From assembly GCA_025153445.1 (NCBI GenBank), contig JANZNS010000003.1, positions 62,001 through 126,000 of the forward strand: a DNA stretch of 64,000 nucleotides. The letters run 5' to 3'. The number at the start of each line of letters is the position of its first letter. The stretch's first letter is position 1. Origin of the DNA: Marinobacter sp. BGYM27. GTDB taxonomy: Bacteria > Pseudomonadota > Gammaproteobacteria > Pseudomonadales > Oleiphilaceae. Positions 19,192 through 21,809 of the stretch are shown in pieces. The position numbers and the translations under genes are program-made. The notes under the pieces were generated by a model. It was not told the origin of the DNA. It ran no database searches and saw nothing but the letters and a program-made list of their open reading frames with translations.

Positions 19192-19662
19192 TTAGCGATT
19201 TAGTCGATCAAGAATGCCACAGACAAATGGCCAGACCAGAGCACTGGTGACGGCGGGAAAAAGATAAGTGAAGCCAGGGTCATCTGCCCCCAGCACCTGA
19301 TTAACGAAATGCACAAACATCTGATTAATACTCAGCAGCAAGAACACCATCATGCATTGCTGAGGTAAGGGAAACATCCGAAGACGCTGGTGGGTTGTGA
19401 GCACGAGAAAGGCAACCAGGCTCATTGCAAACGCGTTTATACCCATCGGGCCTGATTCAAGCACGTCCAGGAACAAACCAAGACACCATGCGACCAGCAC
19501 CCCAAAACGGTTGGGCGCGCGGAAGGTCCAGTAGAACACAATCAGGCCAAGCCACTCAGGCCTCAGGATCAACCAGTCGACGGGAAAGAGGGAAATACTC
19601 AGAACCAGCGCAAGCAGTGTACTGACGAAAAACACAGGGTAACTGATCACAGCAAGACTCAT
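19192..19662 (-). CDS. mreD: MreD, rod-shape determining membrane protein
   Basis: Integral membrane protein of 156 aa with about five hydrophobic helices, part of the elongasome with MreC, RodA and PBP2. The family sequence GINAFAMSLVAFLV and the following basic RLRMFPLPQQ loop are visible. Its ATG overlaps the mreC stop codon by 4 nt, so production should follow that of MreC. Confidence 0.92.
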   Translation of the reverse strand: MSLAVISYPVFFVSTLLALVLSISLFPVDWLILRPEWLGLIVFYWTFRAPNRFGVLVAWCLGLFLDVLESGPMGINAFAMSLVAFLVLTTHQRLRMFPLPQQCMMVFLLLSINQMFVHFVNQVLGADDPGFTYLFPAVTSALVWPFVCGILDRLNR

Positions 19663-20552
19663 TGAACTCCCCCTGACTGCGTTTCGTCGCCATCTGGCAT
19701 GCTGTCTTCCTGGCTATCATCCGACCGAAAGCCCTTGTGCTGGAAGACCACCAGCACCAGCTCGCTTCGATTGAGTTTTGCCGAAGGCTTCGCCTGTATT
19801 TCAGCGAACGGCTCACCCGGCTCGCTGCGAATAAGCGTCACCTGCGCCACCGGATAGCCTTTCGGGAAGCGCCCACCGAGCCCCGAACTCACGAGGGTGT
19901 CGCCTTCTCTGATATCGGCTGTATCAGGCACGTGAACCAACTCCAAACGGTCAACACTACCGGTACCTAACAGGATCGCCCGCACGCCACTGCGCAATAC
20001 TTCCACAGGCACTGCGTGGCTGCTATCCGAGACCAGCAATACACGGGAATTGAAACGATTTGTCTGAATCACCTGCCCCATTAAGCCGTTAGCGTCGAGA
20101 ATGGCCTGGCCTTCCGTAACCCCGTCCCGCGTTCCCTTGTTGATGATCACCTCGTGGGAGAACGGGTCAGGCGAAACTCCGATGATATCGGCCACCACCA
20201 CCGTTTCATCCAACTGTTCCGAGGCGCTTTTCAGGCTTCTCAGCTCAATATTGTCGGCTGCAAGGGACGCGTACTTGATCGACCGACGCTCCAGAATCAG
20301 CAACTTGGCCTTCAATGATTCGTTCTCTTCGACCAGCTCATCACGGCTGGTAAACACCTCATCGTTCCAGCGCGAGAGACTGTCCGGCACGTGCCCCAGC
20401 CACACCACGGGCGTCAACGCAGTGCCAATCCAGCTGCGCATGTCATCCACACGATGAAAGCGGGCATCGAGAATAATCAGGGCAAGGGAAAGCACAGCCG
20501 CCAGAAACAGCCTGAAGCTGGGGATCGGCCCCCTGACAAAGATGGTCTTAAT
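19659..20552 (-). CDS. mreC: MreC, rod-shape determining protein (probable AUU start)
   Basis: Bitopic inner-membrane protein linking MreB to the periplasmic cell-wall synthases. A canonical start occurs only at GTG 20495, but the frame upstream to a TGA at 20558-20556 encodes KTIFVRGPIPSFRLFLAA, which matches the conserved N-terminus of MreC (E. coli begins MKPIFSRGPS) and completes the membrane helix. The codon at the initiator position is ATT (20552-20550), preceded by GGGGAG with about 9 nt spacing. I therefore place the start at ATT, giving 297 aa. The coiled coil (about 70-105) and beta-rich domain follow. The alternative is 278 aa from GTG 20495, with half the helix missing. Confidence 0.85.
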   Translation of the reverse strand: MKTIFVRGPIPSFRLFLAAVLSLALIILDARFHRVDDMRSWIGTALTPVVWLGHVPDSLSRWNDEVFTSRDELVEENESLKAKLLILERRSIKYASLAADNIELRSLKSASEQLDETVVVADIIGVSPDPFSHEVIINKGTRDGVTEGQAILDANGLMGQVIQTNRFNSRVLLVSDSSHAVPVEVLRSGVRAILLGTGSVDRLELVHVPDTADIREGDTLVSSGLGGRFPKGYPVAQVTLIRSEPGEPFAEIQAKPSAKLNRSELVLVVFQHKGFRSDDSQEDSMPDGDETQSGGVQ

Positions 20553-20581
20553 AGTTCAAATCTCCCCACTCAAAACGACAA

Positions 20582-20610
20582 CCGCCGCTGCGACGAATCG
20601 ACAGCGGCGG
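20582..20610 (-). terminator. Strong hairpin between mreB and mreC (attenuator-like)
   Basis: CCGCCGCTG (20582-20590) pairs perfectly with CAGCGGCGG (20602-20610), leaving an 11-nt loop. On the - strand it follows mreB and is followed by TTGTCGTTTT, a broken U-rich stretch. It may partly terminate or stabilise the mreB message, lowering mreCD expression relative to mreB. Confidence 0.5.
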
Positions 20611-20666
20611 CTCAATACTGCAGCTTCCTTCGGGTGACTGCATATGATCTGTGCCAGAAGGCGCTA

Positions 20667-21809
<1,143 letters not shown>

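Follow-up and report, generated by a model that had tools for sequence, protein, structure and literature searches.

Predicted AUU initiation of mreC in Marinobacter sp. BGYM27 and AUH codons at the same position in other Gammaproteobacteria

Within the 64-kb stretch of Marinobacter sp. BGYM27 DNA that was analysed in full (the window), the reading of the sequence leads us to the view that mreC must initiate at the AUU codon 20552-20550. The same position holds AUU, AUC or AUA (collectively AUH) in most of the gammaproteobacterial families examined, among the matches listed. We consider it probable that this codon is a weak start which depends on its Shine-Dalgarno (SD) sequence, which is kept by selection and which also limits mreD; our confidence is tempered because the clade contrasts given below are not independent of each other and because MreC of E. 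coli is not in short supply compared with MreD. Throughout, ATG, GTG and TTG are called canonical.

The mreC start region in the window and in related genomes

As outlined in Table 1, the window carries the gene order mreB-mreC-mreD, and the mreC frame is shut by an in-frame TGA shortly upstream of the AUU, the codon between the two being ACT (20555-20553, minus strand). Downstream of the ATT the minus strand continues with AAG ACC ATC TTT GTC AGG GGG CCG, so that the N-terminus of MreC reads IKTIFVRGPIPSFRLFLAAVLSLALIILDARF... from this codon. The nearest downstream in-frame canonical codon is GTG 20495, located 19 codons 3' of the ATT. An earlier note on this DNA had proposed that no canonical codon lies between the TGA and this GTG, and that an ATT takes the place of the initiator Met codon with GGGGAG about 9 nt upstream; both statements agree with our reading of the window. 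We assign the start to the AUU because the TGA stands two codons earlier, because an SD lies 9 nt upstream and because the protein aligns from this codon with Met1 of E. coli MreC, whose ATG-encoded first residue and its successors match the residues at and after the AUH position. Furthermore, the best 19-residue hydropathy within the first 40 positions is 2.31 for the protein read from ATT (from residue 10 on) versus 0.83 for the protein read from GTG 20495. By hydropathy, MreC read from AUU thus possesses an N-terminal membrane helix, and a start at GTG 20495 would drop the cytoplasmic tail together with the first half of this helix.

Table 1 Coordinates of features around the mreC start in the window
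Feature	Position	Strand	Basis or remark
mreB	20667..21710	minus	stop 114 nt before AUU
GC-rich hairpin in the mreB-mreC gap, then TTGTCGTTTT, a T-rich tail (terminator-like)	20580..20612	minus	folding and terminator scan
SD GGGGAG, 9 nt between SD and ATT	20567-20562	minus	sequence reading
In-frame TGA shutting the mreC frame, two codons 5' of AUU	20558-20556	minus	sequence reading
Predicted mreC start codon ATT (AUU)	20552-20550	minus	ATT/ATC in 81/81 loci; aligns with Met1 of E. coli MreC
GTG, first in-frame canonical codon, within the membrane helix, rejected as start	20495-20493	minus	hydropathy
mreC CDS from AUU, 297 aa	19659..20552	minus	PF04085 MreC match 2.7e-43, over cut-off
mreD	19192..19662	minus	ATG overlaps mreC stop (ATGA)

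For comparison, a protein search of named genomes was used, from which the best 80 of 295 relatives were taken; nearly all of them are filed as Marinobacter, and together with the window locus they give 81 loci. At codon 1 of mreC, 76 of these have ATT and 5 have ATC. A comparison of mreC start regions in relatives had been suggested by the earlier note as a check, and its outcome is uniform; the 19 codons ahead of the GTG, which the note took to encode the conserved start of MreC, are indeed kept as protein in all 81 loci. The conserved Ile codon 4 of the same loci is ATC in 50, ATT in 23 and ATA in 4, with a residue other than Ile in 4, and because this codon is mostly ATC the ATT bias at codon 1 is not a matter of codon usage or chance. 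In 62 of these 81 loci (own plus best 80 of 295) no canonical codon occurs between the upstream in-frame stop and codon 1, and the first downstream canonical codon is scattered from codon 4 to codon 73 without a shared position. Two contigs filed as 'Candidiatus Thalassospirochaeta sargassi' and as 'Halomonas sp.' carry a Marinobacter-like mreC as well, and these names are probably binning or naming errors.

The family set comprised 163 genomes, 161 of them with an MreC match. The pattern ATH AAR ACN ATH TTY GTN CAR GG was found in 120 of the 163 genomes, whereas its version with ATG, GTG or TTG as first codon was found in none of the 163; the window's own genome is among the 43 genomes lacking the ATH pattern, owing to Arg at codon 7. 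Neighbouring genes served as controls. Among the best 80 of 295 relatives, mreB starts with ATG in 77 of the 80 loci with a match (68 of them exactly at the aligned residue, 9 shifted downstream by one residue, the remaining 3 being cut off or misaligned), and maf starts with ATG in 64 and with GTG in 9 of 80 loci, 7 being unresolved. For mreD, canonical codons only were sought near the mreC stop, yielding ATG in 78, TTG in 2 and none in 1 of the 81 loci; this control is blind to AUH, and in 16 of 80 cases the mreD frame contains an in-frame AUH no more than 10 codons ahead of its canonical start. The neighbours of mreC in these loci hence start in the usual way, with mreD looked at for canonical codons only.

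Of the 80 loci in which an mreD start was located (own and best 80 of 295 relatives), 78 have it overlapping the stop codon of mreC. The distance from the mreB stop to the AUH is bimodal: of 80 loci, 48 have 20-21 nt, 31 have 93-128 nt and 1 has 3 nt. Owing to this bimodality, coupling to mreB was not accepted as a full explanation. The region 20565-20625 of the window folds at -27.3 kcal/mol (z -2.87) into a stable stem, and the hairpin is a terminator-like match in the terminator scan; we claim no termination here because the scan returned 4 sites versus 3.0 expected. The hairpin is visible too in M. mangrovi, M. halodurans and Halospina, and it cannot fit in the 48 of 80 loci whose gap is 20-21 nt. 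In the window, the mreB-mreC gap also contains an ATG frame of 31 codons (20548-20643, minus strand); its TAA shares one base with the AUU.

Start codons and Shine-Dalgarno sequences across the class

A search based on an MreC alignment covered 195 genomes of the order (194 with a match) and 276 genomes of the class (250 with a match). The class survey sampled the better matches listed, which favours close relatives, and 58 weaker matches were added; the DNA was then read for a subset spread over the family labels, for the loci returned by the search and for E. coli K-12. This resulted in 359 tabulated loci among the matches listed, with some species present twice from two sources, and 179 family labels were represented by at least one locus.

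Among these listed matches 296 of the 359 loci align at MreC residue 1, where the codon is ATT in 164, ATC in 75, ATA in 26, ATG in 26, TTG in 3 and GTG in 2, and AUH therefore makes up 265 of 296. Counting distinct sequences instead, 265 remain (ATT 139, ATC 69, ATA 26, ATG 26, TTG 3, GTG 2), of which 234 have AUH. At the level of family labels with aligned loci, AUH is present in 98 of 125 and AUG in 24 of 125, E. coli being counted as one. Broken down by rank, again among the matches listed, AUH was read in 129 of 129 loci of the own family (100 distinct), in 60 of 65 loci and 31 of 33 families of the rest of the order, and in 76 of 101 loci and 66 of 90 families of the rest of the class, the ATG of E. 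coli being kept apart. These counts exclude the 63 of 359 listed loci without an alignment at residue 1; among them, 58 offer a shifted nearest candidate (ATG 22, AUH 22, GTG 9, TTG 5) and 5 offer none. If shifts of up to 3 codons are allowed, AUH occurs in 118 of 167 family labels and ATG in 41, among the matches listed. Because of the unaligned loci the class-wide share of AUH is less sure than the family-wide one.

AUH is hence the majority state of the class survey among the matches listed, and the treatment of the AUU as a peculiarity of one genome, as in the earlier note, has to be given up. The best explanation of the distribution would be that the AUH start is an old feature of gammaproteobacterial mreC, present in most families examined among the matches listed. 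It is a widespread phenomenon of the class that is unreported within the literature searched: searches on the mreC start or initiation codon, on PA4480 and on non-canonical starts in Marinobacter showed no report of an mreC AUH start among the papers listed. To our knowledge, the mreC AUH start and that of infC would be among the most widespread non-canonical bacterial starts. In one family label (f149) mreC seemingly starts with GTT AAA after a good SD, another non-canonical start that was seen in two loci (L249 and L358), the first of which also has an ATC one codon before the GTT.

The sequence upstream of the AUH codon is consistent with initiation at this codon. No canonical codon lies between the in-frame upstream stop and the AUH in 214 of the 265 aligned AUH loci among the matches listed, and of the 51 loci which do have one, a single locus shows an SD that is at least 2 kcal/mol better there than at the AUH site. 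An in-frame stop lies within 12 codons upstream in 133 of the 265. The SD core is placed 6-9 nt before the AUH in 203 and 4-12 nt before it in 213 of these 265 listed loci, and 51 of 265 lack a 4-base SD core. With one locus taken per family, the upstream bases are poor in information, the exceptions being purines that peak at -12 to -8, corresponding to the SD, and a preference for C at -2. The latter is found in 61 of 98 AUH families versus 7 of 24 AUG families, and an A at +4 in 91 of 98 versus 13 of 24, among the matches listed; both biases could stem from additional base pairs with the initiator tRNA or just from the conservation of Lys2. A reading of the conserved ATHAAR as part of a promoter was set aside, ATC being nearly as common as ATT over the families and the codon standing in SD register.

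Start codon and SD strength vary together. Among the matches listed, 3 of 26 ATG loci possess an SD core versus 213 of 265 AUH loci, and the family means of the SD energy are -7.7 kcal/mol for the 98 AUH labels versus -3.3 kcal/mol for the 24 AUG labels (p = 5e-8). A parsimony tree of 260 MreC N-termini (99 residues) contains 15 ATG-only clades, one of which includes E. coli, and 14 of the 15 have a weaker SD than the three nearest AUH tips have on average; the corresponding p of 0.001 is optimistic because reference tips are shared (L261 in 7 of the 15 contrasts). According to parsimony, the third position of the start codon changed 49 times among U, C and A, 10 times to G and 5 times from G. 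For 20 fourfold columns of the same genes the respective numbers are 486, 307 and 527, which results in an odds ratio of 0.32 (p = 7e-4) for H to G versus H to H at the start codon as compared with the fourfold columns; among the fourfold columns, that of Arg 50 equals the start codon in its scarcity of G (10 changes to G, 57 among H). AUG is thus one step away from AUH, was reached less often than expected and has mostly a poor SD where it was reached.

These data bear on a reading which we regard as rather unlikely, although it fares best among the alternatives, namely that the AUH start has no regulatory meaning and is an old weak codon tolerated through SD compensation without any selection for low output. 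Weak starts tend to keep better SDs in general (PMC5622118), in line with such a compensation, and the 49 changes demonstrate that AUU, AUC and AUA swap freely. Yet AUG, reached 10 times against those 49 changes where the fourfold columns have 307 against 486, is under-represented, and the weaker SD of nearly all ATG clades looks as if the gain of AUG had been paid for. The compensation trend (PMC5622118) accounts for part of the correlation between codon and SD, but not for the shortage of AUG. We read this shortage together with the SD pattern as a sign of selection for a weak mreC start. The earlier proposal that weak initiation limits MreC and the coupled MreD receives indirect support from the trade-off between codon and SD, from the depletion of AUG and from the overlapping mreD start, and we judge it plausible on these comparative grounds.

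Other readings of the MreC N-terminus and the Pseudomonas aeruginosa protein

If GTG 20495 or its equivalents were the start, the preceding 19 codons would be untranslated. This GTG is the first in-frame ATG, GTG or TTG, and the published numbering of P. aeruginosa MreC suggests a similar start. In one genome of the order, MreC matches the PDB 6ZLV chain at every position over 176 residues; 6ZLV and 6ZM0 are reported as P. aeruginosa MreC (PMC8137920). At this inferred P. aeruginosa locus we found TCTAGGAGCGGATC ATC AAA CCG CTA TTC, that is, TAG GAG CGG ATC ATC AAA CCG with two tandem AUC codons and with three codons separating the in-frame TAG from the predicted AUC start; farther downstream, canonical codons first appear as TTG 16 and GTG 17. 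The published residues Pro114/Phe115 and Glu188/Arg190 are residues 130/131 and 204/206 when counted from the AUC, and from this offset of 16 it follows that the published numbering would begin with GTG codon 17, which lies within the membrane helix. In the same genus, all 12 loci read carry ATC or ATA (12 of 25 genomes with a match).

The shorter P. aeruginosa form retains some hydrophobicity, 1.46 versus 2.34. Nevertheless, a start at the GTG is very unlikely: the upstream codons are conserved as protein in the 81 loci while the downstream canonical position is not shared, the membrane helix would be cut, and in E. coli the AUH position is where MreC starts. With the AUH codon as the start, the published numbering of P. 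aeruginosa MreC seems to begin 16 residues too late. The N-terminus of MreC is probably mis-annotated in many genomes, apparently including P. aeruginosa, and constructs, fusions and complementation plasmids based on such annotations would consequently be missing the cytoplasmic tail as well as half of the membrane helix.

Less probable still is an N-terminus that originates from frameshifting or readthrough of an upstream frame, either mreB or the 31-codon frame. In 48 of 80 loci the mreB stop does precede the AUH by 20-21 nt, and the short ATG frame of the window ends with TAT TAA over the AUU. Across relatives, however, the distance to mreB ranges from 3 to 128 nt and is in frame in only 30 of 80 loci, half of the listed AUH loci have the close in-frame stops mentioned above, and the upstream bases, taken at one locus per family, carry little information beyond the SD and position -2. 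A sequencing error or a decayed gene, for which one might point to an assembly of 19 contigs, is practically negligible and is refuted by the relatives, since ATT or ATC at 81 of 81 loci, the missing canonical pattern in the family genomes and the otherwise intact frame rule out the case, considered by the earlier note, of an aligned ATG in a relative together with an error here.

Proposed initiation mechanism and known systems

As we picture the initiation of mreC, the ordinary initiator tRNA would read the AUU with a third-position mismatch, helped by the good SD, and the first residue of MreC would then be (formyl-)Met and not Ile. Selection would keep the AUH codon and with it a low, SD-dependent initiation of mreC, which would be passed on to mreD via the overlapping start; the AUG lineages, mostly without an SD, would arrive at weak initiation by another route. 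In most Gammaproteobacteria such a weak start would keep the synthesis of MreC and MreD low relative to mreB and sensitive to initiation factor IF3. We infer both the low protein output and its role as the selected trait.

Two bacterial genes offer the closest models for a part played by IF3, and by analogy with infC and sigR the factor would discriminate against the mreC start, so that a control of the AUH codon by IF3 appears likely. A more far-reaching version, which we put forward tentatively and with some doubt, is that of a class-wide control in which the near-cognate start makes the levels of MreC and MreD, and thereby the balance of cell-wall elongation, depend on the state of the initiation machinery, namely IF3 per ribosome. 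If true, this would connect translation capacity directly with cell shape in most Gammaproteobacteria, and the link between IF3 and mreC would have been missed because start annotation does not expect AUH. The questions raised are why MreC and MreD would be held down at initiation and whether IF3 influences cell width.

An AUU start outside infC is also known for pcnB of E. coli, a gene of unrelated function. AUU starts are regarded as extremely rare: in PMC5622118, a single switch from AUG to AUU was reconstructed among 61,358 ancestral AUG starts; counts of this type may be biased by annotations that disallow AUH.

The infC gene, which encodes IF3, starts with ATT in E. coli and with ATC in Streptomyces (PMC5472188). 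With this type mreC shares an AUH codon at the position of the initiator Met and an SD in register, and in both genes the near-cognate start is easily overlooked by annotation. The two differ in that infC is autoregulated with IF3 as its product, whereas MreC, which acts as a membrane scaffold in the elongasome, cannot sense its own start codon in this manner; since the product is MreC (PF04085), mreC does not form an infC-like autoregulated loop. In the own genome, infC seemingly starts at one of two tandem ATT codons (ATT ATT AAA CAG; L082, 1462-1467) at the thrS stop, and its context GGAGATCTGATTATTAAA, with GGAG upstream of the ATTs, is much like that of mreC. In vitro, more IF3 leads to a smaller share of fMet-begun product at an AUU read by a CAU anticodon (PMC10158994).

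The mreC of E. coli, the organism in which this gene is best studied, is an ortholog with the same residue 1 position. It differs by its ATG and by an SD of only -3.0 kcal/mol, which we take as an alternative route to weak initiation. In this organism an excess of MreC shortens and widens the cells and MreD counters the shortening, MreC is reported to be about twice as abundant as MreD and PBP2-RodA, and the balance of MreC and MreD has been proposed to set the activity of PBP2 (PMC7793260). Given this abundance in E. coli, a very low level of MreC is not general.

The sigR gene of Streptomyces starts with a GTC that is repressed by IF3, and replacing the GTC by a canonical codon, or weakening IF3, leads to an overproduction of SigR relative to its partner (PMC5472188). 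It differs from mreC in having GTC and not AUH, in belonging to streptomycetes and not to a whole class, and in that the effect of IF3 is experimental for sigR, mreC being judged by its sequence. In both cases annotation overlooked the start, and in both a non-canonical codon would set the dose against a partner, SigR against RsrA in the one case and possibly MreC and MreD against MreB and PBP2 in the other.
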